A stretch of DNA of 64,000 bases from Altererythrobacter lutimaris (GTDB lineage Bacteria > Pseudomonadota > Alphaproteobacteria > Sphingomonadales > Sphingomonadaceae), in assembly GCF_013371495.1 (NCBI RefSeq), contig NZ_JABWTA010000001.1, positions 2,454,693 to 2,518,692 of the forward strand. The letters are read 5' to 3'. Below, piece after piece: positions 13,845 to 49,626 of this stretch. The notes beneath the pieces are model-generated. The model did not search any database. It worked only from the letters and a program-made list of their open reading frames with translations, and was not told the DNA's origin. The position numbers were made by a program, and so were the translations under genes. The first letter of the stretch is position 1, and each line of letters starts with the position of its first letter.

Positions 13845-14621
13845 TTACTCGGCTCGATCAGCTTCAAGCATTTCAGCGGGCGGGGCGAAGATCTCAGGAT
13901 CAATCGCCTCGCCCACTTTCGTTTCAGACCAGAACACCGTGTTGGCTTTGATGCCATCGTAGAGCAGCGTGACCGAGCGCGCCTGCACCCAGCCATTCTC
14001 GAGCTTCACATATTCATCGTACAAACGCTCGTGCCAGCCCCGCGGACTGTCAAACGCCATGTAGCGGATGAAGCCGCTTTCCACGTCGAACCCGAACAAC
14101 GTTTCGGCACCTTGCGGGTCGGTGATCCTGACCATGGCTGTTTCATGTCCGAGAATGTCACGCTGCGGTGCGAGTGACAGCGTAAAGCCGTCATCCAAAG
14201 CTGAGCGGATAATCCCGAACCCGAAATTGTTGGCCCAGTATTCGTCGGCCTGAGCCTTGGGCATGATGCCGCGCTCTGTCCACGTCGTCTCGCCATCATA
14301 GCCGATCGCGAAGATCGTGCGCTCACCGGATTTCGCGATAATTCGCACTTTGCCGTCTGCACCATGCGCTTCAGTCCGGCCGCGCTCGAAGGCTCGCGCC
14401 ATCGTATAATCGTCGGCAATTGCGCGGACCTGCCCTGTCTGGCCATCGAAGAAAGTTGCCGTGCCCGATAGCTGCAACGTGCCCGGATCTAGGAATAGCG
14501 CGCCGCCGTGGACCGCGATGCCGCGTTCGACGACATCACGTGCGCTGGTCGGCTCTTCGGCTTGCGCGAGACCGGCCATGCCCAGCATGATCGCCGCGAG
14601 TGATCCCAACCATTTGCACAT
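13845..14621 (-). CDS. exported protein of unknown function (LolA-like pattern)
   Basis: The 258-residue protein begins with a clear signal peptide (MCKWLGSLAAIMLGMAGLAQA, cut before EEP), so it acts in the periplasm. The start at 14621 follows GGAGAG; a longer frame upstream would cover the operator and destroy the signal peptide. The rest alternates beta strands with GYDGETTWTERG and ETLFGFDVESGFIRYMAFD. This resembles LolA/LolB-type lipid-carrier folds, which is only a guess. It is divergent from the gene at 14698 and shares the TTGTCCGGACAG operator, so it probably belongs to the regulon. Confidence 0.7.
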   Translation of the reverse strand: MCKWLGSLAAIMLGMAGLAQAEEPTSARDVVERGIAVHGGALFLDPGTLQLSGTATFFDGQTGQVRAIADDYTMARAFERGRTEAHGADGKVRIIAKSGERTIFAIGYDGETTWTERGIMPKAQADEYWANNFGFGIIRSALDDGFTLSLAPQRDILGHETAMVRITDPQGAETLFGFDVESGFIRYMAFDSPRGWHERLYDEYVKLENGWVQARSVTLLYDGIKANTVFWSETKVGEAIDPEIFAPPAEMLEADRAE

Positions 14622-14648
14622 TGCTCGCTCTCCACCGCATCCGGCAAT

Positions 14649-14660
14649 TTGTCCGGACAG
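14649..14660. promoter_or_regulatory. UTRA-GntR operator, site 1
   Basis: TTGTCCGGACAG matches the palindrome TTGTCCGGACAA in 11 of 12 positions. It lies between the divergent genes at 14621 and 14698, 28 and 37 bases from their starts. It is one of six sites assigned to the regulator at 25592. Confidence 0.65.
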
Positions 14661-14697
14661 CTTTTCAACCACCTCCGCGTGGTTTAGGCAAGCACGC

Positions 14698-15336
14698 ATG
14701 AAAAACTGTATCGCTCTAGCTAGCCTCACAGCGTTTGTACTTGCTGTACCTGCGCAAGCTGAAACGCGGCTCGAACCGGGAATCTGGACCAACACGGAGG
14801 ACGTCTATTTCGCTGAGGAAGAGGGCCGCGAGAGAGCAGAATGGCGCGCTTATGAGATTTCGAACGACAGGCAGTGGCGGCTGATCGATGAATTTGGCAA
14901 GCCGGTTGACGGGATTGACGGCCAATGGACTGTCGGTGCGATCCCAAGTCTGACAGAGCGTGAAGAGGGCGGCTGGCAGATCGGCGCAAGCGAGCTTCGC
15001 AAAGCCAACCCTTTTTCATGCTGGGTATCAGTGCGCAAATATGCTGCGAAAGAGGATGGCTCGCCTGATTGGACCTTCGCGCGCGACCTGCAGATCTTCG
15101 ATCAAGGCGGGCGCATTCTGGTTAAAGGCAATGGCGATGCGCCCGACGTAACATTCCGGATGCGCAATGTGACCTGGGCCAAGGGCAGCCGCAACAAACC
15201 TTCGCTCGTACTTTATGTGCACAAGGATGATCCGGTGCTCGCAGAAAGTTATAGCTGGGCGTCGCCGGATACGGATATGGTGGGCATAAATCTGCGCTGG
15301 GTTCAGGGCAGTTGCAGCCGTGTACAAGGAAACTGA
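14698..15336 (+). CDS. exported protein of unknown function
   Basis: The 212-residue protein starts at the ATG at 14698 with a signal peptide (MKNCIALASLTAFVLAVPAQA, then ETRLEPG). In-frame codons further upstream would run through the operator and the divergent gene and are rejected. The mature part has many Trp and charged residues (GIWTNTEDVYFAEEEG, WTVGAIPSLTEREEGGW) and no motif I recognise. The first of a three-gene operon with a lipoprotein (three-base gap) and an AhpD-like protein, it is probably controlled by the operator at 14649. A periplasmic binding or processing role is possible. Confidence 0.65.
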   Translation: MKNCIALASLTAFVLAVPAQAETRLEPGIWTNTEDVYFAEEEGRERAEWRAYEISNDRQWRLIDEFGKPVDGIDGQWTVGAIPSLTEREEGGWQIGASELRKANPFSCWVSVRKYAAKEDGSPDWTFARDLQIFDQGGRILVKGNGDAPDVTFRMRNVTWAKGSRNKPSLVLYVHKDDPVLAESYSWASPDTDMVGINLRWVQGSCSRVQGN

Positions 15337-15339
15337 ATT

Positions 15340-15852
15340 ATGAAAAGAGCGCTCGCAATCCTCCCGCTGTCCGTCCTGCTCATGGCCTGCCCACCGTCCG
15401 AAAAGATGGTGCAGCAATGGGCGGAGATGCAGCAGGAACAAGAGCTGCAACTCGCTGCAGAAGGCGAACGCTGGCTCACCCATTATCAGGCGGGCGATTG
15501 GGAAGCGCTACGGGCGCTCTACACTGACGATGCAGTGTTGATGACTCAGGGCCAAGAAAAGATCGTCGGGGCGGACAACATCATCACCTTTCTGCGTCGC
15601 CTGCCTGATTCGGGCGCGCTGGTGCAATTCCAGTTCGAGAATGAAGAGGTCGATGCAGGTGGCCGCTACACCTATGTCAATGGCTTCGTCACCGCCAAAT
15701 ACATGATGACGATCACTTTCCCTGGACAAGAGCCAGTGCAGGTCGCCGGGCGATCCTTCCTCGTCTACAAATGGGTTGATGGTCAGTGGAAGCTGTGGCG
15801 CGATATTGATAATCTTGCGCCAGATGTGACTCCAGCAGACTTCGCGCAATGA
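15340..15852 (+). CDS. SnoaL/DUF4440-like lipoprotein
   Basis: The 170-residue protein has a lipoprotein signal ending in the lipobox LLMAC (Cys near residue 17). It should be anchored to a membrane facing the periplasm. The mature part has the NTF2/DUF4440 pattern: a helix with GERWLTHYQAGDWEALRALYTDDAVLM, then strands ending in YKWVDGQWKLWRDIDN. The fold commonly binds small hydrophobic ligands or isomerises them. It overlaps the next gene by four bases (ATGA). A ligand-binding role in uptake or early processing is an inference. Confidence 0.72.
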   Translation: MKRALAILPLSVLLMACPPSEKMVQQWAEMQQEQELQLAAEGERWLTHYQAGDWEALRALYTDDAVLMTQGQEKIVGADNIITFLRRLPDSGALVQFQFENEEVDAGGRYTYVNGFVTAKYMMTITFPGQEPVQVAGRSFLVYKWVDGQWKLWRDIDNLAPDVTPADFAQ

Positions 15853-16442
15853 CACGCATCCCGCCGCTTGCGCCTGCTGAAGCTTTCGGCGGCGACGAGA
15901 ATGCGGAATTTGCTCGTGAATTGATGGGATATGTGCCCAATTCCGTGCTGACCATGGCGCATTGGCCGGAGCTTTTAACGGCCTTTCGAGGGCTCGTTGC
16001 AGTGATCTATGGCGAGAGCAAGCTCGACAACGGCTTCAAGCGGCTGATTGGTCACGCGGCGAGCCTTGCAGCTGGTTGTCGCTATTGTCAGGCCCACACC
16101 GCGCATGGAGCTGAGGGATTAGGGGTCAGTGAAGCGAAGCTGTCCGCGCTGTATGATTTCGAAGGGTCAGAGGAGTTCACTGAGGCCGAGCGCGCAGCGC
16201 TTGCGCTCGCTTTTGCGGCAGGCGCCACGCCCAATGCAGCAGAAGACGCGCATTTCGCCCGGCTTTCAGAGCATTATTCCCACGCTGAGCAAGTCGAGAT
16301 CATGGCGGTGATCTCGATGTTTGGATTTCTCAACCGCTGGAATGATACGCTTGCGACCTCGCTTGAAGCCGAACCGCTAAAGCACGCTGAGACGATGCTG
16401 ACCGGACACGGCTGGGAGGCCGGTCGTCACTTAAGAGACTAG
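15849..16442 (+). CDS. carboxymuconolactone decarboxylase/AhpD-family protein
   Basis: The 197-residue all-helical protein carries the AhpD-type redox motif CRYCQAHT (Cys77, Cys80, His83) after GHAASLAAG. AhpD proteins act as thiol reductants for peroxide defence; related carboxymuconolactone decarboxylases lack the Cys pair. The Cys pair here favours a thiol-redox role, though the substrate is unknown. The start overlaps the lipoprotein stop by four bases. Its stop and the stop of the convergent gene at 16439 share the palindrome CTAG, so the two genes end on the same four bases. Confidence 0.82.
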   Translation: MTRIPPLAPAEAFGGDENAEFARELMGYVPNSVLTMAHWPELLTAFRGLVAVIYGESKLDNGFKRLIGHAASLAAGCRYCQAHTAHGAEGLGVSEAKLSALYDFEGSEEFTEAERAALALAFAAGATPNAAEDAHFARLSEHYSHAEQVEIMAVISMFGFLNRWNDTLATSLEAEPLKHAETMLTGHGWEAGRHLRD

Positions 16443-16747
16443 CCCTGCTTCCAGGTCGCGCCGCCAACCCAGTCACCAGCGACGGCTATGAATTCTTCGC
16501 TGCGAATGGATTGCCATACGCCGGCAGAGAAGTAGGGATCTGCTTCGAACTTGGCGCGTGCTTCGTCCTGATTGTCGGCCTTGATGACAAGGAATGAGCC
16601 GACGGTTTCATCGCCGCGTTTCAAAGGGCCTGCCACCGCATAGTCGTCTATATGGGCTTCGACATGCGCCAGATGCGCGTGCAAGTCCCGCTCACGCAGT
16701 CTCGCGCCATGCTCGCCGTCGCGGCAATAGAAAGCGTACAGCGCCAT
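16439..16747 (-). CDS. YciI-family protein
   Basis: The 102-residue protein has the ferredoxin-like YciI pattern: YAFYCRDGEHGARLRERDLHAHLAHVE, AGPLKRGDETVGSFLVIKADN and DPYFSAGVWQSI. The family has a conserved His and Asp and can act in dehydrohalogenation, chlorocatechol metabolism or similar small-molecule steps. It is the last gene of the long minus-strand operon starting at 25553, four bases after the glyoxalase-fold gene. The specific reaction is not known. Confidence 0.82.
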   Translation of the reverse strand: MALYAFYCRDGEHGARLRERDLHAHLAHVEAHIDDYAVAGPLKRGDETVGSFLVIKADNQDEARAKFEADPYFSAGVWQSIRSEEFIAVAGDWVGGATWKQG

Positions 16748-16751
16748 TATC

Positions 16752-17648
16752 TTATCCTACCTCTACACATTCGATGAGTTCTGTGCCTGAGCCGATGGCG
16801 GTTGCGGCACGTCGCCCTCCATACATCGCGCCTTGCCGTACGGAAGGCTCTTCAATCCATTCCGCTTCACATTCATCGAGGTTTTCCACCGCGAGTGTGA
16901 CTAGTGCATTACCTGGCGGTAGCATGCCTTCATGACGCGGTCGGCGCATGGCGCTGCGCGGATAGTCATCGACTTCAACGATCGGCATGCGGCCCTGCTT
17001 GACCATGCTGATCGTCGTCAGTGTGTCGTCGGGCAGTCCGAACGCATCATTGATCATGGAATAGGGCAACGTGTAGTCGGCACCGCGCTCAAGCCCCAGA
17101 TTGTCGGCATACCATTCGAGGCTCGCCTTGCGGTCCGGAGTTGCAAGGATGACGATAAAGATGCGGTCAACATCGGATTTGGCTCGCGGCAAGTCCGTGT
17201 CATCCATATTCTTCAGCACCTGGTTGAGATAGATCATCTCCTTGCCTGGCCCGAGCGCTTGCATCGGGATGAAAGCTGGTTCGATGTTCTCAAGCGTCTT
17301 GGGCGGTCCGACTATGGTGAAGTGATTTTCTGGCAGAGCGTCCGGCCATTTCCAGACATCTTCGACTGTCAGTTCGAACGCGGCCCAGCCATAGGTTGTG
17401 GTCGGTTTGAAACCGCCAAAGTCTGGCTGCTCGACCAATCGCAGAAAGCACGGCTCACCTGATTTGGGCTGGAGCACAGCATAGGGAGAGCCATAATTTC
17501 CCGAACAGTTCCAGCTTGCTGCAAGACTTTCGTCAAGCTCGCCTTGTTCCACTAGATCGAGGCCGAGAACATCGCGATAGGCAGCGATGCCAGCCTTGAG
17601 ATCGGGGACTGTTGAAAGTCCGCCAAGGATCGTGCCGTGTTCTATCAT
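16752..17648 (-). CDS. two-module VOC (glyoxalase/dioxygenase-fold) protein
   Basis: The 298-residue protein contains two glyoxalase/VOC modules, about 5-125 (GTILGGLSTVPDLKAGIAAY) and 140-290 (RIFIVILATPDRKASLEWY), as in extradiol dioxygenases and lactoylglutathione-lyase relatives. Metal ligands of the usual H-H-E or H-E type are not obvious, so isomerisation, epimerisation or ligand binding is as likely as dioxygenation. It lies 130 bases after the crotonase gene in the same direction. At least three other VOC-fold proteins occur in the regulon, which hints at an enolisable or quinone-like intermediate. Confidence 0.78.
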   Translation of the reverse strand: MIEHGTILGGLSTVPDLKAGIAAYRDVLGLDLVEQGELDESLAASWNCSGNYGSPYAVLQPKSGEPCFLRLVEQPDFGGFKPTTTYGWAAFELTVEDVWKWPDALPENHFTIVGPPKTLENIEPAFIPMQALGPGKEMIYLNQVLKNMDDTDLPRAKSDVDRIFIVILATPDRKASLEWYADNLGLERGADYTLPYSMINDAFGLPDDTLTTISMVKQGRMPIVEVDDYPRSAMRRPRHEGMLPPGNALVTLAVENLDECEAEWIEEPSVRQGAMYGGRRAATAIGSGTELIECVEVG

Positions 17649-17778
17649 CGCTGCATTCTCTCCCGTGTCAGGGTCGGCCCTTGTGGCCTAACTCAAAGCA
17701 GCAGTCCTGCGACTTTGGCGTCTGCAGATGATCGACGCGCGGACATAAGAAGGGTTCCCTCTACTCTGGCAGGGTCGT

Positions 17779-18531
17779 TCAGAATTTCGGCTTTCGTTTC
17801 TCCATGAATGCCCTCGTGCCTTCCGCAAAGTCATCACGCGTGAAGGCAGCATCGAAAATCCCAAGGGTCTCGTGATCGTCCTCGCTCTGCCCGTCCAGAA
17901 CTCGCTGAATGAACCGTTTGCTTTGCCGTGCAGTATGGCTGGACGCAGCCAGCAATTGTTCGATCAGGAAGGCGCTATCTTCGGCGACAAACTCGACCAG
18001 ACCGATGCGCTGGGCCTCCGCCGCATCAATCAGCTCGCCTGTGTAAAGCATTCGCTTGGCTTGACCTGGACCGACGAGGTCAACCAGCAGTTTTACATCG
18101 TGAAGCGGATAAACAAGGCCGAGTTTTGCTGGGGTGATCCCGAAACGCGCGGCCTTTGTTGCAACGCGCATATCGCATGCCATCGCGAGGCCGCATCCGC
18201 CACCGACGCAGTCTCCTTCAACGAAGGCAATGGTCGGGATGTCCGCCCGGGCGAGCTCATGCTGGACCCGGTTTATCTCGGCCTGATTGGCGTTCCGCCA
18301 GCTGGAATTGTCCTTGTTCTCCATCAATTCCTTGATGTCTGCACCTGCGCAGAAGGCGTTTCCAGCAACTGCTGAACGCAATTCCAGTACGCGGATCGCT
18401 GGATCGGATACAGCATCATTCAGCAATGCCGGAAAGGCTTCCCACATCGCCATATTGAACGCGTTGCGCTTGTCAGCCCGGTCAATCAGCAATCGGGCGA
18501 TGGCCCCGTCTTTTTCCAGTCTCAAACTCAT
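17779..18531 (-). CDS. crotonase-family (enoyl-CoA hydratase/isomerase-like) enzyme
   Basis: The 250-residue protein starts at the ATG at 18531, overlapping the upstream stop by four bases. The crotonase oxyanion-hole segments are present: NAFCAGADIKEL (58-69) and GDCVGGGCGLAMACD (106-120). The two catalytic Glu of classic enoyl-CoA hydratases are replaced by Gly114 and Ala135. It is therefore probably not a simple hydratase; C-C hydrolase, decarboxylase, dehalogenase or isomerase activity on an acyl-CoA is more likely. Its operon also encodes a PaaK-like ligase, which could supply the CoA thioester. Confidence 0.85.
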   Translation of the reverse strand: MSLRLEKDGAIARLLIDRADKRNAFNMAMWEAFPALLNDAVSDPAIRVLELRSAVAGNAFCAGADIKELMENKDNSSWRNANQAEINRVQHELARADIPTIAFVEGDCVGGGCGLAMACDMRVATKAARFGITPAKLGLVYPLHDVKLLVDLVGPGQAKRMLYTGELIDAAEAQRIGLVEFVAEDSAFLIEQLLAASSHTARQSKRFIQRVLDGQSEDDHETLGIFDAAFTRDDFAEGTRAFMEKRKPKF

Positions 18532-19418
18532 GCCGGATTGGTCTCCATGAAGTGATCCGCGATTGCTTTGCGCGTTGTCACCCATACACCATCATGTGCG
18601 CGGACATGCTTGAAAAATTCTTCCAGCGCCCAGATGCGCCCGGGCCGCCCGATAATACGCAAATGCAGTCCCAGGCCCATCATCTTGGGATTGCCTTCCA
18701 CGCCTTCGCGATAGACTTGGTCGAAATTCGCTTTGGCATAGTCGAGCCATTGATGCGGCGTGAAAGCCGGGTCGGTCCACATCTTCATATCATTGTTGTC
18801 GAGCTGATAGGGGACGATGCACATGGGGCTGCCTTCGGGCGGTCCGCCAGGGCCGCTGCCGCGATCCCAGAACGGCACGTCGCCTGAGTAGTCGTCCATG
18901 TGATAGGTGAAGCCCTCTTCCGCCAAGAGGCGGCGCGTATTGTCCGTCAGAAGATAGCGGCTGAGCCAGCCATAAGGACGCACGCCGCAGGTCTTTTCGA
19001 TACTGCTCACAGCCTTGCGGATGAACTCGCGCTCTTCGTCTTCTTCCATCTTGAACTGATGTACCCAGCGATAGCCATGGCTGACCGGCTCATGACCCAG
19101 CTCTACAATCGCTTCAGCGATCTCGGGATGGTTTTCGAGCGCAAGTGCGGCAACAGTCCAGCTTGCCATGATGTCATACTGCTTCAGCAAGTTGACGATG
19201 CGCGGTGCGCCAGCTTTGATGCCGTATAGGTAGTTGCTCTCGTTTGAATAGTTGCGGATCTTCGACTTTACAAAGACGCCCAACTCGTCGACCGGCTCCA
19301 TCCCTCGGTCGCCGCGCGCGATAGTCATTTCACTACCTTCTTCGACATTGACGACGACGCTTAGCGCCATCTTTGCGCCGTCAGGCCAGTCGATCCGTTC
19401 TTCAGGAAGCGGCATCAA
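18528..19418 (-). CDS. polysaccharide deacetylase-family (PuuE-like) hydrolase
   Basis: The 296-residue protein belongs to the NodB/carbohydrate esterase 4 fold and looks most like the PuuE allantoinase branch: LGHEPVSHGYRWVHQFKM carries the His pair, and AGAPRIVNLLKQYDIMASWTV and GVRPYGWLSRYLLTDNTRRLL are the neighbouring NodB segments. The branch hydrolyses ring or linear amides without sugar substrates. It has four-base overlaps with both neighbours. With the amidase at 20538 it suggests that the pathway opens at least one C-N bond. Confidence 0.82.
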   Translation of the reverse strand: MMPLPEERIDWPDGAKMALSVVVNVEEGSEMTIARGDRGMEPVDELGVFVKSKIRNYSNESNYLYGIKAGAPRIVNLLKQYDIMASWTVAALALENHPEIAEAIVELGHEPVSHGYRWVHQFKMEEDEEREFIRKAVSSIEKTCGVRPYGWLSRYLLTDNTRRLLAEEGFTYHMDDYSGDVPFWDRGSGPGGPPEGSPMCIVPYQLDNNDMKMWTDPAFTPHQWLDYAKANFDQVYREGVEGNPKMMGLGLHLRIIGRPGRIWALEEFFKHVRAHDGVWVTTRKAIADHFMETNPA

Positions 19419-20215
19419 TGCATTTCCTCTCCGCCACTAACATTCAAGGCTTCGCCCGTCACATAGAACGCTGCATCGCTCGCTAGCCACAAGCATGCGG
19501 CCGCAGTGTCAGATGGCAGGCCGGGACGGCCCATGGGATTTTTCGCGCTCATATTGGCAAGGTAATCCTCGACTGTGTCAAAGCCCAAGAGCTTGGAGAA
19601 ATACTCGTTCTGCTGTGCGCCAAGGCCGGTTGTCACATGGTTCGGGCACACCGCATTCACAGTGATGCCATGCGCTCCGAGTTCAACGGCCGAGGCACGC
19701 GTCAGCCCGACCATGCCGTGCTTGGAAGAAACATAGGCAGGCAAATGCGGAAAGCCCGTTTTGGCTGCTTGGCTGGCGATATTGATAATCCGCCCGCCAT
19801 TGCCTTTCGCCACCATCGCGCGCGCGGCAGCTTGCGAGCAGTAGAAAGCGCCCGACAGATTGACGCTGAGCACTTGGTCCCATTCGGTGGCTGTGTCGAC
19901 TTCGAGGAACGGTTTCATCTTGAAGCCGATGCCAGCATTGTTGACCATCACATCGACAGCGCCGAAATGCTCGATAGTCTGCGCGACCAATGCCTGACAC
20001 TGCTCGGCGCTGGATACATCACATGCAATGGTCGCTACCTTCGCCCCGCGGCGGCGCAGCTCCTCAGCCACCCCGTCGGCTTCAGCATCAATCGCAAGGT
20101 CTGAGACGACGCAATTCGCACCATCATCGGCAAAGGCCTGCAAGATGCCTTGACCAAGCCCCCGCTCCTTGCCGGAGCCTGTGACGACAATGGTCTTTCC
20201 AGTAAACTGGCCCAC
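19415..20215 (-). CDS. short-chain dehydrogenase/reductase
   Basis: The 266-residue SDR has the Rossmann motif VVTGSGKERGLGQG (10-23), the NNAG motif (92-95) and the catalytic Ser148, Tyr161 and Lys165 (YVSSK). An acid residue (Asp39) after the second strand suggests NAD rather than NADP. It would oxidise or reduce an alcohol/ketone intermediate. It sits one base after the small HapK-like gene and overlaps the deacetylase-like gene by four bases. The C-terminal NVSGGEEMH is typical of 3-oxoacyl-reductase-like SDRs. Confidence 0.9.
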   Translation of the reverse strand: MGQFTGKTIVVTGSGKERGLGQGILQAFADDGANCVVSDLAIDAEADGVAEELRRRGAKVATIACDVSSAEQCQALVAQTIEHFGAVDVMVNNAGIGFKMKPFLEVDTATEWDQVLSVNLSGAFYCSQAAARAMVAKGNGGRIINIASQAAKTGFPHLPAYVSSKHGMVGLTRASAVELGAHGITVNAVCPNHVTTGLGAQQNEYFSKLLGFDTVEDYLANMSAKNPMGRPGLPSDTAAACLWLASDAAFYVTGEALNVSGGEEMH

Positions 20216-20216
20216 C

Positions 20217-20525
20217 TTAGAGGTCTTCCGTCAGGATAAACTGCGGCGCATCAGCATAGACCTGAAAAGGCGCTGCAGCCTCTTGGAATTCAGGGTTTGA
20301 AATGTCTGCAATGAAGTCATCCATACTCGTGATGTCGAGCACTTCGAAATAGGCATAGGGCGATGGCGTATCCGGATCGCCAAACAGCCCGGTTGCCTTG
20401 TGCACGGTAAAGCTGGTGACAGAAGGAAGCGCGCTTGCGGTCGGCACATCCTTGGTCTTTGCCCATTCCTCATATTCCGCCACATCGGTGCCGGGCTTCA
20501 AATTGAACGGTACGATGATGCGCAT
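20217..20525 (-). CDS. small REDY/HapK-like alpha-beta protein
   Basis: The 102-residue protein (MRIIVPFNLKPGTDVAEYEEW) resembles the small REDY-like/HapK group and, more broadly, dimeric alpha-beta barrel proteins such as EthD. It has no signal peptide and no clear catalytic motif. The segments VTSFTVHKATG and YAYFEVLDITSMDDF fit two ferredoxin-like beta-alpha-beta units. It is tightly packed in the operon between an amidase and an SDR. A role as a small-molecule isomerase or lactone-handling enzyme is only a suggestion. Confidence 0.6.
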   Translation of the reverse strand: MRIIVPFNLKPGTDVAEYEEWAKTKDVPTASALPSVTSFTVHKATGLFGDPDTPSPYAYFEVLDITSMDDFIADISNPEFQEAAAPFQVYADAPQFILTEDL

Positions 20526-20537
20526 GGATTTTCTCCT

Positions 20538-21683
20538 TCAGCATGCAGGCGCGCGGTAAGCGCGCAGATTGTTATCGAGGAAACGAGCAAGAGCGAACAG
20601 GCCTTTCTCAAAGCCCGGCGCGCAAAGCATTTGCACGCCCAGTGGCAAGCCCCATTCCGTGCAGCCCATCGGCATGCTCAAAGCAGGTACGCCTGCGATA
20701 TTGGCCAGACAAGTAAAGTCTGCCTGTGCTGGCGGTTCAGGCTCGGTATGCTTGAACGGCGGATTGGGCACTGTCGGCATGATGAGGAAGCCATGCTCTG
20801 CGATGATAGTCCGCACTGTCTCGGATGTTCGTTCGAGGATGTGCCGATCCTCCCCCCACTTCTCGCTTGCACGGGCAGGACCATAAGTCAGCAATTTGGC
20901 GAGATGATCGGAGACGGGAACGCCTTGCAAGTGCTTTGCCATGACCTTTGAGACCTGAATGAAGCCGGCATAGCGGATGCGGCTGCAGGGATGCTCAAGC
21001 GATACTTCGGCCGGTGGCGCTTTCAGCCCTGCGACCGTGCGGCGGAAAGCGCGGGCCACTTCGGAGTCGATTTCAACGCCGTGATCGACCAGCACCGCCC
21101 CGCTAAAGGCCTCCTGATTTTCGCCGAAATCGGAGATGACTCGCGCAGCCTTTTCAAGCGTATCAAGATCGCGCGCGAGTGGTCCAATGGCATCGAGTGA
21201 CAGGTCCGCTGGCTCCAAGCCGTCCTGGCTGACCCGCGAAGTTGCGGGTTTGAAGCCGTACACCCCGCAATGAGATGCCGGAATGCGAACCGAGCCCATC
21301 GTGTCTGTGCCAAACGCAATATCGACAAGGCCCGCTGAAACCGCTGCTCCACTTCCACCGGACGAACCCCCGGGAGAAAAGCCTTCGCCATGCGGATTCT
21401 GCACAGGACCGAAATGGGGGTTATCCGTCTTGGAACCGAGCGCTGCTTCTTCCATATGCAGCACGCCTGTGATCGCAGCGCCAGCTGCGCGCAGCTTTGC
21501 GACCACTTCTGCGTCGCGATCAGCCTTGCGATACTCCCAAGCGCCGATCCCGGCATGGAATGGCATGCCTTCGACCATGATGTTTGCTTTCACGCCTACG
21601 CTCAGGCCAGCGAGCGTGCCATCCTCGCTGCCCGTTGCCGCATCATCGCGGTAAGCAAAGGCGTTATAGCGGTCGAGGGTCAT
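20538..21683 (-). CDS. amidase-signature hydrolase
   Basis: The 381-residue enzyme has the complete Ser-cisSer-Lys triad of the amidase signature family: Lys32 in GVKANI, the cis-Ser Ser107 in SPGGSSGGSG, and the nucleophile Ser131 in GTDTMGSVRIPAS. At 381 residues it is shorter than GatA-type members (about 480) and closer to small aliphatic or aryl amidases. It would hydrolyse a carboxamide in the cytoplasm. It overlaps the PaaK-like ligase gene by four bases, so the acid released could be the acid then activated with CoA. Confidence 0.92.
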   Translation of the reverse strand: MTLDRYNAFAYRDDAATGSEDGTLAGLSVGVKANIMVEGMPFHAGIGAWEYRKADRDAEVVAKLRAAGAAITGVLHMEEAALGSKTDNPHFGPVQNPHGEGFSPGGSSGGSGAAVSAGLVDIAFGTDTMGSVRIPASHCGVYGFKPATSRVSQDGLEPADLSLDAIGPLARDLDTLEKAARVISDFGENQEAFSGAVLVDHGVEIDSEVARAFRRTVAGLKAPPAEVSLEHPCSRIRYAGFIQVSKVMAKHLQGVPVSDHLAKLLTYGPARASEKWGEDRHILERTSETVRTIIAEHGFLIMPTVPNPPFKHTEPEPPAQADFTCLANIAGVPALSMPMGCTEWGLPLGVQMLCAPGFEKGLFALARFLDNNLRAYRAPAC

Positions 21684-25553: not shown

Positions 25554-25591
25554 CGCAGCGATCCTCCTAACAGGACTGGAAGACGAACTAA

Positions 25592-27462: not shown

Positions 27463-27467
27463 GATGC

Positions 27468-28685: not shown

Positions 28686-28754
28686 CTTCAGCTCCCTTCC
28701 CAGACTGTTCCGCTTTTCGCGCGGCTTGTTGTTCTTGCATGCGAAAGCGAATGA

Positions 28755-29939: not shown

Positions 29940-29976
29940 GATATCTGTCCTTTGAGGTATTCAGGTCTTTGTCGTC

Positions 29977-36356: not shown

Positions 36357-36373
36357 GGGGTGATCCCGGACGA

Positions 36374-39865: not shown

Positions 39866-39955
39866 CCGCCGCGGACGGAGGGACAGGTGCGGCTTTGACC
39901 GGGCAAACCGGCATGGCTGCTGTAAAGCGTACCTTATCCAGGGAAGGAAAATTTC

Positions 39956-42589: not shown

Positions 42590-43644
42590 TGCGCAAATGC
42601 CTCGAAGTCTTCGGGGTGATGGTGGGGCTGATGCTGTTCGCAGTGTCAGCCCCCACTGCTTTGGCTGATGAGGACGCAGATGCCGCCCAGTTCGGCGTCG
42701 CACCGTGGAGCGAAGCGATCGTCAGTGTATCCGATCTTCAGGAAAGTTCTTCCTGGCTGATAAAGGACGGCGATTGGCGCATCATTGCCGAAGGCGAGCT
42801 TGAGGCGAGCGAGCTGCTATATTGGAAGCAAACGGAAGGCGTTGGCGCTGCATTCCGGCTCATCTGTGCGGCCAAAGAAGAGACCGGCTGTATACGTTTC
42901 ATCCGGTTTGATGGTGCAGAAAAGCAGCGACCGATTCGTCGCACCGCGCGGCCGTGGGATACAGGCGGTATTTTCTCGATCATGCTTAGAAGCGAGGACA
43001 CCGAAGCGCTTTACGAGGCCGCGATTGCACGCGGGTGGTGGGCCGAAAGCGAGCCCTATCGATTCAGTTTTGGCGGTTCGGACCTAGTCAATGTCGTCAT
43101 TCGCGGCCCTCACGGTGTCAATTATGCATTGTATGAAAGAGAGGCGCCACCTTTCACAGGATTTCCCATCGGCCGTCTCAGTCAAGCCTTCAATACGATG
43201 CGAATGGTGAAAGATCAGCCAGCCAGCCTGGCATTCTACCACGACACTCTTGGGCTCGACGTTTTGTTCGATGCGCCGTTTACAGATCCGGAGCCGCGCT
43301 CCAACAATTTCTCTGTGCCTGCCAATCTGGCCACCACTCTGGTCCGTCGAGCTGCAGTGGTGCAGCCCAAGCTGCCAGGTGAAACAGGCCGCATCGAAGT
43401 GATGCAGTTCGAAGGCTTTGAAGGTCGCGATCTGTCTGAGCATGCAGTTCCGCCCAATCTCGGGATTTTATCCGTTCGCTATCCGGTCGCTGATTTGGCG
43501 GGCTATCGCTCTATGCTGGAAACACGCGGAGTTACCATCGACTATGAAGGGCAAAACGTGCCAATCCCAGGCATCGGGACAGTCGACATCTTTGCAGTCC
43601 GTTCACCCGATGGCGCGATCACGGAGTTTTATGATGCGCCTTGA
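42589..43644 (+). CDS. exported VOC (glyoxalase-fold) protein
   Basis: The 351-residue protein starts at the ATG that overlaps the receptor stop. It has a signal peptide (CLEVFGVMVGLMLFAVSAPTALA, then DED). Two VOC modules follow: about 40-190 (SVSDLQESSSWLI, HGVNYALYERE) and about 200-350 (NTMRMVKDQPASLAFYHDTLGLDVLF, DIFAVRSPDGAITEFYDAP). Export of a glyoxalase-fold protein is uncommon. Being coupled to a TonB receptor, it may bind or convert the ligand in the periplasm. It overlaps the serine hydrolase gene by about ten bases. Confidence 0.82.
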   Translation: MRKCLEVFGVMVGLMLFAVSAPTALADEDADAAQFGVAPWSEAIVSVSDLQESSSWLIKDGDWRIIAEGELEASELLYWKQTEGVGAAFRLICAAKEETGCIRFIRFDGAEKQRPIRRTARPWDTGGIFSIMLRSEDTEALYEAAIARGWWAESEPYRFSFGGSDLVNVVIRGPHGVNYALYEREAPPFTGFPIGRLSQAFNTMRMVKDQPASLAFYHDTLGLDVLFDAPFTDPEPRSNNFSVPANLATTLVRRAAVVQPKLPGETGRIEVMQFEGFEGRDLSEHAVPPNLGILSVRYPVADLAGYRSMLETRGVTIDYEGQNVPIPGIGTVDIFAVRSPDGAITEFYDAP

Positions 43645-44854
43645 TCGGCTTGTTCTTGCACTCGCGGCGTTGCTTTCCGCACCTGCGCTGGCGCAGGATG
43701 GCGCAGAGCAAGTGGACGAGAATTTTGAGCGTCGCTGGGAAAGTCTGGCTGCAGGCGGATATCAGCCGCTCACGATCCCGGTGGATTGGTATGATCCGAT
43801 TGCAGAAGTTGCTGGCGATCCCAAGCCTTATTCGCTGACGACGCCGCAAGCTGCCGGAATTGCGACGACTTCTATCGCGTCGGCAGATGCTTGGGCCAAG
43901 TCGCAGAATTCCACTGCGCTGATTATCGCGAGAGACGGCAAGGTCGTTCACGAGCGTTATTGGCAGGGCTCTGGCCGAGATACGCTGTTCAATCCGCAAA
44001 GCATGTCGAAAACGCTGACGGCGATGCTCGTAGGGACTGCGATTGCGCGGGGTGAGATCGCGTCGGTCAACGATCCGATCGGCAAATATATCAGCGAATG
44101 GGCCGACGATCCGCGCGGGCAAATCCCGTTGCGCCATATGCTCTGGATGGCGAGCGGGCTTGAGCAAGGCGATGATGGCTATGGCTATCAAGTCACGCGC
44201 GATAATCCGATTGTGCGCCATTCGCTTGGCAGCGATTTTACAAAGCGACTATTGACGCTCAATCAGCGTGGGTCTTCCGGCGAGACTTTCGACTATAACA
44301 ATCAAGTCAATCAGCTGGTTGGCATGGTGCTCGAAGGCGCGACTGGCAAAGACTACGAGATCTTGCTGTCCGAACGCTTGTGGCAGCCGCTAGGGCTTGC
44401 CGATGCAAAGATGCCTTTGGACCGTGAAGGCGGAATGGTCTTGTCGAGCTGCTGTGTGATCTCGCGCCCGATAGACTGGGTGCGGATCGGCGGTGTGTTT
44501 GTCGATGCTGAGAAGGTCGGTGCACGCCAGATCATTTCGCGCGAATGGCTTGCTGAAATGGCGGAACCCTCACCTGGCTATGCGGGTTACGGCTTTCAGG
44601 TGTGGACTGGCAATCAGCAGATTGGCGGCGAGCGTCCGCCTGGCGTTCCACTCATCCCGTGGCAAAGCGAAGCATTCGCTGCGCCAAAAGTGATCGTCTT
44701 TCACGGTCATGGCGGTCAGCGGACTTATGTGTTGCCCGATAAAGGCCTCGTTATCGTCCGAGCTGCGAGAGACTGGCCGGATGCCTGGGACGACGCTTTA
44801 CTGCCCAATGTGATATGGCGCGGGACCAGCGCACAAAAAGGAATAACTGAGTGA
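43634..44854 (+). CDS. exported serine hydrolase of the beta-lactamase/penicillin-binding fold
   Basis: The 406-residue protein starts at one of two adjacent ATG codons; the second (43634) lies seven bases after GGAG. A signal peptide ends APALA (about residue 20). The nucleophile motif S-x-x-K is SMSK (Ser123-Lys126) and Tyr-Asn-Asn (FDYNNQVNQL) is the second motif. These class C/esterase-like enzymes cleave esters or amides of small molecules in the periplasm. In this operon a first hydrolysis of the imported compound is likely. It is followed by an MFS gene with a GTGA overlap. Confidence 0.9.
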   Translation: MRLDRLVLALAALLSAPALAQDGAEQVDENFERRWESLAAGGYQPLTIPVDWYDPIAEVAGDPKPYSLTTPQAAGIATTSIASADAWAKSQNSTALIIARDGKVVHERYWQGSGRDTLFNPQSMSKTLTAMLVGTAIARGEIASVNDPIGKYISEWADDPRGQIPLRHMLWMASGLEQGDDGYGYQVTRDNPIVRHSLGSDFTKRLLTLNQRGSSGETFDYNNQVNQLVGMVLEGATGKDYEILLSERLWQPLGLADAKMPLDREGGMVLSSCCVISRPIDWVRIGGVFVDAEKVGARQIISREWLAEMAEPSPGYAGYGFQVWTGNQQIGGERPPGVPLIPWQSEAFAAPKVIVFHGHGGQRTYVLPDKGLVIVRAARDWPDAWDDALLPNVIWRGTSAQKGITE

Positions 44855-46167
44855 CCACAACTGCAAATTCCATGACGGACGACCGCGGCGAGTTTTCCAA
44901 GGGCTGGAAAGTCCTGCTCGCTGGTGTTCTCGGCGTCATGTGCGGCGCAAGTCCGATACCTTACAACGTAATCGGATTTACAGCTGAGCCCTTGCAGGCT
45001 GAATTCGGCTGGTCGCAGACGCAGGTTCTTTTGCCAATCAGCCTGTTTGGTGTGATCGCGAGCCTTCTTGCGCCGGTATTCGGCTGGATGGCCGATCGCT
45101 TTGGCGTTCGCCCGGTCGCGCTGTGGTCATTGTTCGCGTTTGGCGCTGCGTTTGCCGCGATCAGCCTAACCCCGACCAGCGATGAGGCTTCAACGCTCTA
45201 CATCTATTACGGTCTGTGGATTATGGTGGGGCTCGTAGGCATTGGCTCGACGCCTGTCACGTGGAGTCGCGCAATCAATCTGTGGTTCTTCAAGAACCGG
45301 GGGCTGGCGCTCGGCATCCTGCTGATGGGCACGAGTATCGCTGCGATGATTGTGCCTCAGGTCGCCGTTTGGGCAATCGAGACTTATGGCTGGCGAGCCA
45401 TGTTTGCGATTATCGCGCTGTTTCCGGCTGCTGCGCTTATCATTGCCTTCTTCCTGTTTCGTGAGCCGCACGCGGACGAGCGCCCTGCGGATATTGCAGG
45501 GGCCAGCGGGCGGTTGACAGGCGTTACGCTCGGCACAGCCCTCAAGGATTACCGCTTTTGGCTGATCTGGCTCTCCATTGCACTGATCGCAGTGAGCTTC
45601 GGCGGTGCGTTCATCAACATGCCGACAATGCTGCGCTTGCGCGATGTCGATGCGCAGTCTGCTGCGACCGTCATGGGCATTCTCGGTTTCGGCATCTTCG
45701 CGGGCCGCCTGATAACAGGCTTCCTGCTCGACCGGTTCTGGCAGGGCTTTGTTGCATTCCCGCTGCTGTGCCTTCCTGCAATCTCCGCGTGGATATTGCT
45801 GGGTGACAGCATCACTTTCCCGCTTGCAGCGCTTGCCGGTTTCCTGCTCGGCTTTGCCGCAGGCGCGGAAAGCGATCTGATCGCCTATCTGACCGGCCGC
45901 TATTTCGGCATGGCGCATTATGGCAAGATCTACGGCATGCTTTACATGCCGTTCGGCTTTTTCTCAGCCGCATCACCTGTGATCTACGCACAGGTTTTCG
46001 ACCGTACTGGCAGCTTCGATCCCATTCTCGAGCTCGCCATCTTTGGGTTCATCATAGGCGGCGGTTTGCTGCTGTTCCTCGGACGATATCCAGACAGCTT
46101 CCCCGAAAGCGATGATGAAGCTGGCACCCCTTCAACCCCCACTCAAACCCAACTGGAGGCCGCCTGA
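44851..46167 (+). CDS. MFS transporter
   Basis: The 438-residue protein starts at a GTG that overlaps the previous stop (GTGA). It has about 12 hydrophobic segments, the loop motif GWMADRFGVRPV after helix 2, and KNRGLALGILLMG in the middle. The pattern matches the oxalate/formate or monocarboxylate-like MFS carriers. It probably moves a product of the periplasmic hydrolase into the cell. It is the second MFS gene of the regulon and overlaps the oxidase gene (TGATG). Confidence 0.9.
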   Translation: MTTTANSMTDDRGEFSKGWKVLLAGVLGVMCGASPIPYNVIGFTAEPLQAEFGWSQTQVLLPISLFGVIASLLAPVFGWMADRFGVRPVALWSLFAFGAAFAAISLTPTSDEASTLYIYYGLWIMVGLVGIGSTPVTWSRAINLWFFKNRGLALGILLMGTSIAAMIVPQVAVWAIETYGWRAMFAIIALFPAAALIIAFFLFREPHADERPADIAGASGRLTGVTLGTALKDYRFWLIWLSIALIAVSFGGAFINMPTMLRLRDVDAQSAATVMGILGFGIFAGRLITGFLLDRFWQGFVAFPLLCLPAISAWILLGDSITFPLAALAGFLLGFAAGAESDLIAYLTGRYFGMAHYGKIYGMLYMPFGFFSAASPVIYAQVFDRTGSFDPILELAIFGFIIGGGLLLFLGRYPDSFPESDDEAGTPSTPTQTQLEAA

Positions 46168-47729
46168 TGGCAACCCTCGCAACTGACAACCCGCTAGCTC
46201 CGATCCGTTCCGCTGTAGACGAAGCTGCGCTCCTGACCGACGCGGACAATCTCGCGCTTTACAGCCATGACGTTTTGTCTCGCGGAAGCGAGCCAGTGGC
46301 TGTCTTTCGCCCTTCAAGCGTTGAGGAACTGGCCGCGGGGGTTGGCGCTGCAACCAAGGCAGGCCTTGCTATTGTTCCGCGCGGTGGCGGGATGAGCTAT
46401 ACCAGCGGCTATCTCTATGAGGGCGGGCCCTTCCTGCTGATTGATACAGGCGCACTCAACGCCGTGCTCGACATCAATGAGACAGACATGACTGTCACGG
46501 TCGAAGCAGGCTGTACCTGGGACAAGCTCTATCGCGAATTGAAGCCGCGCGGACTGCGGGTGCTGGCATGGGGTACGCTCTCCGGCATCCGCGCGGCGAT
46601 CGGCGGCGGGATGAGCCAGAACGGCATCTTCTGGGGCGCGCGCAATGGCACCGCAGTCGACAGCGCGCTGAGTATGGATGTTGTGCTCGCTGACGGTACA
46701 GTTGTGTCTACTGGCTCTGAATTCTTCCGCCCGTTTGGCCCTGACCTGACAGGCTTGTTTGCGGCTGATTGCGGCGCGCTTGGAGTGAAGGCCCGCGTGA
46801 CTCTAAAGCTCGTCCGCGAAGCTACGGCATTCGCCTATGGCTCTTTCAGTTTTGACACTCATGAAGCGCTTTACGCCAGTATGAGCGAGATCGCTCGCGC
46901 AGAACTGGCATCGGAAAGCTTCGCCTTTGATCCATTCCTGCAAGCACAGCGTATGAAGCGCGACACTCTGCTCAAGGATGCCCAACAGCTAGGCAATATG
47001 ATGAAAGAGCAAGTGAAGTCCGGCGGCGTTCTCAAAGCCATGAAGGAAGGCGCGAAAGTTGCGATGGCGGGGCGCTCTTTCCTCGATGATGTGCCGTTCA
47101 GCCTCCACTGTGTCGCCGAGGGACGTCACCAGGCCGCAGTCGATGCTGACATGAAAGCCATCGAAGCGATTGTCACCGGCAATGGTGGGAAAGTGATCGA
47201 GAATTCCATTCCTAAAATCCTGCGTGCCAATCCTTTCCCTCCGCCCAATTCCATGCTTGGCCCAGATGGCGAGCGCTGGGTTCCAGTGCATGGCTTCCTG
47301 CCGCATTCCAAACTCGTGGAATGCTGGGATCGCTTGCAGGCGCTTTGGGATGAGCATGCCGAAGATATGGCCCGCCTGAAGGTTGAAACCGGCGCTCTTA
47401 TCGCCGCGACTAGCCGCACCAGCTGCCTGATCGAGCCGGTGTTCTTCTGGCCAGGCGAACACAATCCTTTCCACAAACTCGCGGTTGAGCCTGACCATAT
47501 GGCGAAACTGCAAGAGCAGCCTGATAATCCCGAGGCCAATGCGCTGGTTATGGAGCTACGCCGAAAAGTGATCGATATCTTCCATGCAAGGGGCGCAATC
47601 CATTTGCAGATCGCGCGCTCCTATCCCTTGAAGGAAAGCCATCAGCCAGAGGCATGGAACATCCTTGCTGCATTGAAGCACCAAGTCGATCCGCGCGGAC
47701 TTATGAACCCGGGCTCGCTAGGCCTTTAA
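46167..47729 (+). CDS. FAD-binding oxidoreductase (GlcD/VAO-type)
   Basis: The 520-residue protein has the PCMH/VAO FAD domain at about residues 35-220: VFRPSSVEELAAGVGAATKAGLAIVPRGGG, TVTVEAGCTWDKLYRELKPRG and GTLSGIRAAIGGGMSQNG. The substrate domain follows and ends PRGLMNPGSLGL, as in glycolate/D-lactate dehydrogenase relatives. It probably oxidises an alcohol or 2-hydroxy acid, passing electrons to a quinone or oxygen. It has no signal peptide. The start overlaps the MFS stop, and a two-base gap leads to the nitrilase-fold gene. Confidence 0.88.
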   Translation: MATLATDNPLAPIRSAVDEAALLTDADNLALYSHDVLSRGSEPVAVFRPSSVEELAAGVGAATKAGLAIVPRGGGMSYTSGYLYEGGPFLLIDTGALNAVLDINETDMTVTVEAGCTWDKLYRELKPRGLRVLAWGTLSGIRAAIGGGMSQNGIFWGARNGTAVDSALSMDVVLADGTVVSTGSEFFRPFGPDLTGLFAADCGALGVKARVTLKLVREATAFAYGSFSFDTHEALYASMSEIARAELASESFAFDPFLQAQRMKRDTLLKDAQQLGNMMKEQVKSGGVLKAMKEGAKVAMAGRSFLDDVPFSLHCVAEGRHQAAVDADMKAIEAIVTGNGGKVIENSIPKILRANPFPPPNSMLGPDGERWVPVHGFLPHSKLVECWDRLQALWDEHAEDMARLKVETGALIAATSRTSCLIEPVFFWPGEHNPFHKLAVEPDHMAKLQEQPDNPEANALVMELRRKVIDIFHARGAIHLQIARSYPLKESHQPEAWNILAALKHQVDPRGLMNPGSLGL

Positions 47730-47731
47730 GA

Positions 47732-48901
47732 ATGGCGCTTGAGACGGACCGACGTCGCGCAATCGCAGCGGGCATGACCGCAGCGGTTGTGGGGTCGGTT
47801 CCTCTGGCCGCGCCGCTTGCTGTACAACAGGACAAAGATGTGACTGACACTGCCACTTACTCCGCCATCGCCATGCAGTTGACCGCACGCTCGCTGGAGC
47901 GGCTGCCGGATGAAGCGAGTGCACGCAAAGCGATCCAGGATCACATTGCAGAGCTGGAAACGCCGATCCGCACCAGCGCGATCTTCGTCCAGCAATATGC
48001 GGGAAAGCCAGTGAAGCTGGCCGTGCTGCCCGAATATCTCTTTACGTCTTATCCCGGGCGCATTTCCATCCCCGATTTCGCGCGCAAGGTCGGATTTGCG
48101 CCGGGCGGCGCGGAATACGAAGCGCTGGGTAATCTCGCGAGCAAATTGGGCATGTTTGTCGCAGGCAATGCCTATGAGACCGACGATGCTTTCCCGGACT
48201 TCTATTTCCAGACGAGCTTCGTGGTTGCGCCGAATGGCGACACAGTCCTGCGCTATCGCCGCCTGATTTCCATGTTTGCCCCAAGCCCGCACGATGTGTG
48301 GGAGACGTATCTCGACAAGTATGGGCTTGAAGCGGCGTTTCCGGTTGCTAAGACGGAGATTGGCAATCTGGCAGCGATTGCGAGCGAAGAAATCCTCTAC
48401 CCTGAGATTGCCCGCGCGCTCGCGCTGCGCGGAGCGGAGCTTTTCTGCCATTCCTCTTCGGAAGTCGGCAGTCCAATCGCCACCAACAAGGATATCGCCA
48501 AGCAGGCCCGCGCGTTCGAAAACCTTGCTTATGTCGTGAGCGCCAACACTGCCGGGATTTCAGGCGCAGGCCTCCCGCTTAGCAGCGCTGAAGGCAACAG
48601 CCAGGTTGTCGACTATAAAGGCCGCGTGATTGCGCAATCGGGCGACGGCGAGACCTTCACCGCATTCGCGAACATAGACCTTGGCAGTCTGCGCGAAGCT
48701 CGCCGGACACCTGCCATGACCAACTATCTCGCGCGGCAAAGACCCGCGCTGTGGGCGGAAGCCTATGCGGCGGCGGCGGACAATTTCCACCGCGCAGACG
48801 GAATGATGGCAGATGGAAGACCGGCGATCCCTGAACGCGATTACTTCAAGCGCGCGCAAGAGAAAGTCATCGAGCGTTTGGACAAAGCGGGGATCATCTG
48901 A
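47732..48901 (+). CDS. nitrilase-fold protein with altered catalytic triad, probably exported
   Basis: The 389-residue protein starts at the ATG at 47732 and has a Tat-like leader (TDRRRAIAAGMTAAVVGS). Its core follows the nitrilase/amidase superfamily: VKLAVLPEYLF carries Glu101, LRYRRLISMFAP has Arg177 where the family has Lys, and AAIASEEILYPEIARAL has Ser218 where the family has the nucleophilic Cys. The triad Glu-Arg-Ser suggests either a lost activity or a different chemistry, possibly a binding role. Compare the intact relative at 53863 (Glu44, Lys117, Cys159). It is coupled to the next gene by TGATG. Confidence 0.85.
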   Translation: MALETDRRRAIAAGMTAAVVGSVPLAAPLAVQQDKDVTDTATYSAIAMQLTARSLERLPDEASARKAIQDHIAELETPIRTSAIFVQQYAGKPVKLAVLPEYLFTSYPGRISIPDFARKVGFAPGGAEYEALGNLASKLGMFVAGNAYETDDAFPDFYFQTSFVVAPNGDTVLRYRRLISMFAPSPHDVWETYLDKYGLEAAFPVAKTEIGNLAAIASEEILYPEIARALALRGAELFCHSSSEVGSPIATNKDIAKQARAFENLAYVVSANTAGISGAGLPLSSAEGNSQVVDYKGRVIAQSGDGETFTAFANIDLGSLREARRTPAMTNYLARQRPALWAEAYAAAADNFHRADGMMADGRPAIPERDYFKRAQEKVIERLDKAGII

Positions 48902-49626
48902 TGCAGCACAGAAACGTCCGCGGGAAGATCCGCTATTCGTCGATGAAGCCCGGCATGGAAGGGCAGGAGCGCGGGCGTGAGTGGTTCAATTTCACCCACC
49001 ATGCCGATGGCTCTGTCATTATGAGCGCGCAATGCGAGATCGAGGAGCCTGATCCCACCGTGCTCCGCAATATCGTTTGTCATATCGGACCGGACCGCAA
49101 GCCGCAGAACCTGCTCGTGCATCTAACACTCGGCGATGAGTTCCTGGGCTCAGGCTGGATGGCTTACGATCAGTCAGCGAACCAGATTACATGCGAAAGC
49201 CAGGGTCCTTCGATCGGGCGTAATTCAGAAACGCGCGAAGCGGGCGAGTTTGATGCGTTCGGCACTCATCCGGTAGTGGGCGATGGCTTCACCACACGGC
49301 TGATGGACATCTCCAAAGGTCCGCATCGCCGCAAATTGCGGTTTTTCCTGCCATCACCGGACCATCGCGGCGCGACACCTCCGCAAATCGCGGAAGTGTT
49401 CATGACCATGGAATATGTCGGCGAAGAGGAAAAGACAGTTGAAGCAGGCACCTTCCAATGCCGCCGCTATCGCTATGTCGATGACAGCGACGAAGGCATG
49501 GGCGGGGAACGCCACCCGGACTTCGACATGTGGGTGACGGCAGATAACGACTCGGTGCTCGTTTACGGTTCTATCGACGGGTACATGATGAACCGTTACG
49601 AGCTGGTCGAGCTCGAGCGAGACTAA
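48901..49626 (+). CDS. conserved hypothetical protein, cytoplasmic
   Basis: The 241-residue protein starts at the ATG overlapping the previous stop. No signal peptide or known motif is visible. The sequence is rich in charged residues and in strand-like segments (GSVIMSAQCEIEEPDPTVLR, LLVHLTLGDEFLGSGWMAYD, FDMWVTADNDSVLVYGSIDG). The pattern suggests an all-beta, lipocalin- or ketosteroid-like shape, but this is weak. It is the last gene of the seven-gene operon behind operator site 6. A role as a pathway enzyme or ligand-binding partner cannot be decided. Confidence 0.7.
   Translation: MQHRNVRGKIRYSSMKPGMEGQERGREWFNFTHHADGSVIMSAQCEIEEPDPTVLRNIVCHIGPDRKPQNLLVHLTLGDEFLGSGWMAYDQSANQITCESQGPSIGRNSETREAGEFDAFGTHPVVGDGFTTRLMDISKGPHRRKLRFFLPSPDHRGATPPQIAEVFMTMEYVGEEEKTVEAGTFQCRRYRYVDDSDEGMGGERHPDFDMWVTADNDSVLVYGSIDGYMMNRYELVELERD

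Follow-up and report, generated by a model that had tools for sequence, protein, structure and literature searches.

HutC-type regulators act on operators of the GT-N4-AC form. For the HutC regulons of Sphingomonadales, one study (PMC5343134) gives genes of TonB-dependent transporters as predicted members. Another (PMC9304392) describes the fungal HxnM as hydrolysing cyclic imides and groups the PuuE family with the cyclic imidases. Here we analysed a stretch of 64,000 nucleotides from Altererythrobacter lutimaris (contig NZ_JABWTA010000001.1, positions 2,454,693 to 2,518,692; hereafter the window), in which an earlier note had seen a 36-kb catabolic regulon marked by six copies of the palindrome TTGTCCGGACAA and a central GntR-UTRA regulator. 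Comparison of sequences across related genomes indicates that the palindrome is probably bound by this regulator, which would control the local catabolic genes. Coordinates of up to five digits are counted within the window and longer ones refer to the genome.

Coupling of the regulator to the palindrome

The regulator, encoded by gntR, combines an N-terminal GntR helix-turn-helix domain (PF00392, 73.3 bits; cut-off 27) with a C-terminal UTRA domain (PF07702, 60 bits; cut-off 23.8). It had been singled out as the sole regulator of its type in the window, and it is in fact the only UTRA protein in the whole genome. PheR of Sphingobium was considered as the same regulator and rejected, as its description (PMC13273656) makes it an IclR regulator.

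All six sites reported earlier with 11 or 12 of 12 matches were recovered, two as exact copies and four with one mismatch (Table 1). At up to two mismatches the window contained 9 matches; 100 shuffled sequences averaged 1.82 ± 1.17, and not one of them had as many as 9. Five sites are intergenic, three of them between divergent genes, as had been described; the sixth, previously placed beside gntR, is located more precisely inside the first codons of the divergent MmgE/PrpD gene 1 (codons 9-13, provided that the start is the ATG at 25553 behind AGGAGG). The whole genome (2.95 Mb) had 12 sites with at most one mismatch, 6 of them inside the window, and 3 matches to a reversed control pattern; exact copies numbered 5, of which 2 were in the window. 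The six sites outside comprised two exact operators in a second block of genes to the left of the window (the left block, described below), two sites within coding regions and two among unrelated neighbouring genes.

The same coupling was seen across the genus. In 114 Erythrobacter genomes, including the window's own, the regulator (called at E ≤ 1e-40) was found in 31, and the regulator alignment covered 25 of these 31 orthologues. The exact motif was present in every one of the 31 regulator-bearing genomes (1-8 copies each, 172 in total) versus 4 of the 83 that lack the regulator, where it was a single copy in each case, and the reversed control pattern gave 14 copies across the 114 genomes. 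Fisher's p for the co-occurrence was 7e-24, a value calculated over genomes that are related and hence not independent. The earlier note had proposed comparing related genomes for co-occurrence of motif, regulator and genes, and would have taken a motif frequent away from these genes as a refutation; its interpretation is supported, as the exact motif tracks the regulator and is nearly absent where the regulator is missing (4 copies in 83 genomes). The six relatives for which all exact sites were listed (G004, G012, G041, G042, G064 and G085) had every one of them on the regulator's contig, within ~45 kb of it.

As a second set, we used 80 listed loci from named genomes, mostly Sphingomonadales plus Steroidobacter and Peristeroidobacter, some of them incomplete. 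Orthologues of the regulator are present in E. tepidarius and E. cryptus, among others. A site with at most one mismatch was present in 71 of the 80, and exact copies amounted to 125, whereas 59 control palindromes made of the same half-site letters gave a mean of 0.12 copies and a maximum of 3. After 14 loci had been set aside as too short for counting site positions, 60 of the remaining 66 carried an exact copy located 4.5-7.5 kb beyond the start of gntR, which corresponds to the position of 31364 in the window; those without it were L065, L098, L123, L126, L132 and L144. The coupling of regulator and motif therefore reaches other Sphingomonadales and Steroidobacter.

The operator consensus from 188 sites was ATTTGTCCGGACAAAT, with the core GTCCGGAC, which is of the GT-N4-AC type. 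Among 29 neighbouring site pairs less than 260 bp apart, 19 were spaced 39-42 bp. L066, L067, L075, L082 and others have operators in tandem at a spacing of 39 or 42 bp, which is close to four turns of the helix. Promoter boxes were counted at 177 sites, 60 of 237 having been dropped as near copies. With the operator read in one or both orientations, TTGAC started 10-18 bases upstream of it at 67 of the 177, mostly at an offset of 12 (41 cases) or 15 (12 cases). Within these offsets TTGAC was counted 70 times, permutations overlapping TTGACTT 43-54 times and the best other permutation 9 times. Because an operator at this distance would lie over the spacer between the -35 and -10 boxes (~17 bp) and the start of the -10 box, the arrangement suggests that the regulator acts as a repressor.

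Several observations weigh against so simple a picture. Exact TTGAC at a fitting distance is confined to just those 67 sites. Upstream of gntR itself, 64 of 79 loci had no site with at most one mismatch within 250 bp, and autoregulation is therefore not general. The MmgE operon may be transcribed from the 31364 promoter instead of one at 25517. One relative (G079) has an exact site far from its cluster. In the window's genome, the two sites outside the window that lie inside coding open reading frames (ORFs), both of the one-mismatch class, reflect either a wider regulon or chance, as does a one-mismatch site directly before Rieske/cytochrome b genes (2336049-2336060). An exact copy at 1845774-1845785 lies amid other catabolic genes (acyl-CoA dehydrogenase, FAD monooxygenase, Asp/Glu racemase-like and E1-like) and may be an additional target or a chance occurrence. 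An assignment of this last site to a photosynthesis cluster was rejected: its neighbours are catabolic or of unknown function, and the single weak BchO match is far under the cut-off.

Extent and gene content of the proposed regulon

The part of the window between 13845 and 49626 (the right block) had been credited with about 34 genes, and our recount gave about 35. Beside the regulator in the 80 listed loci, MmgE1 was found in 71, the two CaiB genes in 71 and 70, PaaK and MmgE2 in 70 each, the SDR, HapK-like and acyl-CoA dehydrogenase genes in 69 each, the amidase in 68, the PuuE-like and MaoC genes in 66 each, enoyl-CoA hydratase in 64, VOC and HpcH in 63 each, the membrane protein and a TonB receptor in 46 each, and DUF1838 in 38; YCII was left out of this count.

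The proposed limit of 36 kb turned out to be too small, as a second block of ~20 genes lies outside the window and the regulon is split in this genome. We compared gene order in six relatives using 20-kb stretches, in which a simple ORF caller misses or misplaces some genes. Five relatives (G004, G012, G041, G042 and G085) had one contiguous cluster, with the core operons followed by the receptors, the transport and oxidase genes and then a distal module. In these relatives, operators of the distal module separate the amidohydrolase gene from that of the alpha/beta hydrolase and also precede a methyltransferase-like gene. In the window's genome this module stands apart as the left block (2401916-2421838), at a distance of 33-53 kb from the window, and its two exact operators are those at 2401886 and 2414407. 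For the genes from 2421878 to ~2456000, reciprocal matches in the clusters of the relatives were weak at best (28-40%), and closer to the right block some genes are common to G042, G085 or G041. In L123, L126 and L144 the regulator adjoins members of the distal module and not of the core, which argues for one regulon comprising both. Counted by adjacency to operators, the two blocks together hold ~55 genes.

Some neighbouring features were recorded in addition. The sixth relative, G006 (L163), has a decayed cluster, of which the regulator, a pair of CaiB genes and a single exact site are left. HMG-CoA-lyase-like and HydA/HydB hydantoinase-type genes at 8890-13841 of the window have no operator and are 82-90% conserved beside the cluster in some relatives. 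A flavin amine oxidase gene (55475-56881) lies outside the block, and its orthologues (56-60% identity) adjoin DUF1838 inside the cluster of G042 and G004. Two nitrilase-superfamily homologues, one in each block (47732-48901 and 2404254-2405393), have signal-like N-termini and, as judged by eye, no cysteine at the catalytic place.

Table 1. Operators, regulator and genes of the two blocks (right-block coordinates are those of the window)
Feature	Coordinates	Strand	Remark
Predicted exported protein, unknown family	13845..14621	-	
Operator TTGTCCGGACAG	14649..14660	+	One mismatch; between divergent genes 13845-14621 (-) and 14698-15336 (+)
Unknown exported-like protein, SnoaL/DUF4440-like protein, carboxymuconolactone decarboxylase-family protein	14698..16442	+	
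Core operon: YCII, VOC, enoyl-CoA hydratase, PuuE-like cyclic amide hydrolase (predicted; 18528-19418), SDR, HapK-like, amidase, PaaK-like CoA ligase, MmgE/PrpD 2 and 1	16439..25553	-	
Operator ATGTCCGGACAA	25517..25528	+	One mismatch; within 5' end of MmgE/PrpD gene 1; 63 bp to gntR start codon
GntR-UTRA (HutC-type) regulator, 257 aa	25592..26365	+	PF00392 and PF07702 above cut-off
Core CoA operon: two CaiB-type, acyl-CoA dehydrogenase, RipB-like MaoC hydratase, RipC-like HpcH lyase	26368..31304	-	
Operator TTGTCCGGACAA	31364..31375	+	Exact; between divergent HpcH (30486-31304, -) and VOC (31434-31910, +) operons
VOC protein, zinc-type dehydrogenase, VOC protein, MFS transporter	31434..34808	+	
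Operator ATGTCCGGACAA	34820..34831	+	One mismatch; intergenic, co-directional genes; before DUF1838; TTGACC 15 bases upstream
DUF1838 protein, predicted beta-barrel	34872..35807	+	
DUF4440 protein and TonB-dependent receptor 1 (36374-38857)	35910..38857	-	
Operator TTGTCCAGACAA	38940..38951	+	One mismatch; intergenic, co-directional genes; before TonB receptor 1
Membrane protein without Pfam match	39056..39739	-	Similar 230-aa membrane protein in left block
Operator TTGTCCGGACAA	39852..39863	+	Exact; between divergent 39056-39739 (-) and 39956-42589 (+); before TonB receptor 2; TTGACA 15 bases upstream
TonB-dependent receptor 2, exported VOC, beta-lactamase-type, MFS, FAD-linked oxidase, nitrilase homologue without expected cysteine, protein with weak DUF3108 match	39956..49626	+	
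Distal module (left block), part 1: two 400-aa methyltransferase-fold proteins, membrane protein, exported-like nitrilase homologue, DUF1330 proteins, VOC lipoprotein-like protein			
Distal module (left block), part 2: CaiB-type, HMG-CoA-lyase-like, LeuD, LeuC, 169- and 152-aa calycin-type proteins, alpha/beta hydrolase			
Distal module (left block), part 3: amidohydrolase, two PuuE-like proteins, aldehyde dehydrogenase, zinc-type dehydrogenase			

Enzyme families and candidate substrates

Three of the four PuuE-family proteins in the genome belong to the regulon. When compared with PDB entries, the one in the window matched PuuE at 220 bits; against the allantoinase model TIGR03212, which has a cut-off of 424.6, it reached no more than 243 bits and the left-block pair 110 and 108. 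Their family resemblance suggests that these proteins may be cyclic imide hydrolases. The left-block amidohydrolase matched entries for N-carbamoylsarcosine amidohydrolase and has D, K and C at the places expected for activity. Among the CoA enzymes, the MaoC protein was nearest to RipB (223 bits; equivalog cut-off 340), the HpcH protein to RipC (219 bits; 375), and the CaiB pair to CoA:oxalate and succinyl-CoA:mesaconate CoA-transferases, under the equivalog cut-offs. MmgE2 was nearest to cis-aconitate decarboxylase and IDS epimerase. The left block further encodes an HMG-CoA-lyase-subfamily protein over its cut-off and a LeuC paralogue that passed the broader LeuC subfamily models and scored 521 bits against the LeuC equivalog cut-off of 560; a separate canonical LeuC (761 bits) is encoded at 133432.

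The whole is likely to be a local catabolic regulon. The HutC-type regulator, most likely as a dimer, would bind ATTTGTCCGGACAAAT and repress the cluster operons until an intermediate of the pathway occupies its UTRA domain and releases it. The substrate would be taken up by the two TonB receptors and MFS carriers and passed to the hydrolases and the CoA pathway. The three PuuE-type cyclic amide/imide hydrolases, the cysteine amidohydrolase and the amidase would open and deaminate cyclic imides or amides, and the resulting methyl-branched unsaturated dicarboxylates would be hydrated by the LeuCD and MmgE/PrpD paralogues. CaiB-type CoA-transferases would activate the hydrated acids, and the RipC-like and HMG-CoA-lyase-like enzymes would cleave the CoA esters to pyruvate and an acyl-CoA. 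The substrate is probably nitrogen-containing. For the chemistry as a whole, cyclic imide/amide hydrolysis followed by an itaconate/citramalate-like CoA route, doubt slightly outweighs belief in our view; counting against it is that LeuD alone reaches its NCBIfam equivalog cut-off, with RipB, RipC, PuuE, LeuC and the CoA-transferases all below.

One speculative and rather unlikely possibility for the substrate is that the regulon forms a dedicated pathway by which the cell obtains carbon and nitrogen from products of tetrapyrrole breakdown, such as bilins and the catabolites of chlorophyll or haem. The rings of tetrapyrroles carry a beta-methyl group, which would lead to citramalate-type acids. 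Tetrapyrrole products are suggested by the joint occurrence of bilin/haem-type folds, cyclic imidases and citramalate-type cleavage. The rings would be oxidised to methyl-substituted maleimides, which the three PuuE-like imidases would open and the amidohydrolases deaminate; hydration would give 3-alkyl-citramalates, and cleavage of their CoA esters pyruvate with butyryl-CoA (from an ethyl ring) or glutaryl-CoA (from a propionate ring). PMC8669743 names maleimides as degradation products of tetrapyrrole pigments and mentions bacterial growth on porphyrins; no gene cluster of this kind was described among the open-access papers listed. The pigment may be bound by the small calycin barrels and perhaps by DUF1838. 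The AlphaFold model of the 152-aa left-block protein (predicted local distance difference test, pLDDT, 95.9) matched BFA1 (Z 16.7; root-mean-square deviation, rmsd, 2.9; 138 aligned), nitrobindin (Z 15.5; 2.9; 141), the phycobiliprotein lyase CpeS (Z 14.6; 3.0; 140) and DUF3598, so that by fold alone this model is of the bilin/haem-binding calycin-barrel type. The DUF1838 model (pLDDT 88.4) is a beta-barrel with weak matches; Foldseek found none at E ≤ 0.001 (best E 1.2e-3, haemophore 8xjc, template-modelling score 0.26), and the fold comparison gave CpeS at Z 7.7 (rmsd 3.8, 140 aligned) with porins comparable (Z up to 8.5). If the substrate is indeed of this kind, the regulon would hold genes for the bacterial recycling of very abundant nitrogen-containing pigments.

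Other results speak against tetrapyrroles. The fold of the 152-aa protein is common also to the spirocyclase OssO (Z 15.5) and fatty-acid-binding proteins (Z up to 11.8). Haem TonB receptors carry FRAP and NPNL boxes with haem histidines; the two receptors here have neither box and 2 His each, and haem uptake by them was rejected. For those regulon proteins that were scanned, the Pfam matches included neither a haem oxygenase nor a Rieske oxygenase, though a VOC protein could serve as a ring-cleaving dioxygenase. A link to photosynthesis was likewise rejected: reaction-centre genes occurred in 26 of the 31 genomes with the regulator and in 59 of the 83 without it, which shows no association (p = 0.23).

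The same regulon might instead serve a nitrogen-free branched polycarboxylate, such as an alkyl-itaconate or alkyl-citrate natural product, the PuuE-like, amidase and isochorismatase-type proteins then having esters or side chains as their targets. The two MmgE/PrpD proteins (the one tested being related to cis-aconitate decarboxylase) and the CaiB/RipB/RipC-like set are what the breakdown of an itaconate-like acid would require, but three PuuE-family proteins and a cysteine amidohydrolase with D, K and C at the expected places point to C-N bonds, and we regard such a substrate as possible though unlikely. Quite unlikely, in our estimate, is a hydantoin- or allantoin-like N-heterocycle of the purine, pyrimidine or creatinine type. 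PuuE allantoinase and N-carbamoylsarcosine amidohydrolase are the nearest solved relatives and HydA/HydB genes adjoin the cluster; however, the PuuE scores of 108-243 bits stay below the allantoinase cut-off, the hydantoinase-type genes lack an operator, and such a compound would have no need for LeuCD, MmgE, CaiB, RipB/RipC-like and HMG-CoA-lyase-like enzymes. That the palindrome is bound by another protein and gntR merely travels with the cluster, as its near site in just 15 of 79 loci might suggest, is very improbable, since the regulator stays with the motif where the neighbours differ (L123, L126 and L144) and in the decayed G006 cluster, and GT-N4-AC is the form of HutC-type operators.

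Comparison with known systems

Binding by the regulator is our preferred reading. The analysis defines a regulator, an operator and a set of ~55 genes, and the uncharacterised pathway to which they would belong recurs in Steroidobacter and many Sphingomonadales. The earlier suggestion of a new degradation pathway stands insofar as no described pathway with this gene set was found in the open-access literature searched; its novelty is judged from gene families. No bacterial operator with this core was found in the same literature, where papers on TGTCCGGACA were judged by titles and the starts of abstracts. The type of control is familiar, and the pathway appears undescribed in the open-access literature searched.

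Among the known systems compared, the calycin barrels (CpeS-type lyases, nitrobindins, DUF3598 and BFA1) share the predicted fold of the co-regulated 152-aa protein, but their identity to it is 16% or less and the fold is common to fatty-acid-binding proteins. Cyclic imide hydrolases and PuuE allantoinase, as exemplified by HxnM in fungal nicotinate use, resemble the regulon in its three NodB-like family proteins, although these are under the PuuE cut-off and the remaining pathway differs. In itaconate degradation, a CaiB CoA-transferase, the RipB/Ich hydratase and the RipC/Ccl lyase act together, and CaiB, RipB-like and RipC-like genes likewise share one operon here; unlike that pathway, the scores are under the cut-offs, an acyl-CoA dehydrogenase, two MmgE/PrpD proteins, LeuCD and an HMG-CoA lyase are added, and the regulator is of the GntR-UTRA type. 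No hut-type (histidine-use) families were present among the regulator neighbours scanned. With the HutC regulons this system has in common the same two-domain GntR-UTRA regulator, a palindrome of the GT-N4-AC type, a catabolic cluster and, as predicted for those of Sphingomonadales, genes of TonB-dependent transporters, whereas the operator core here is GTCCGGAC and the ~55 genes are those of another pathway.

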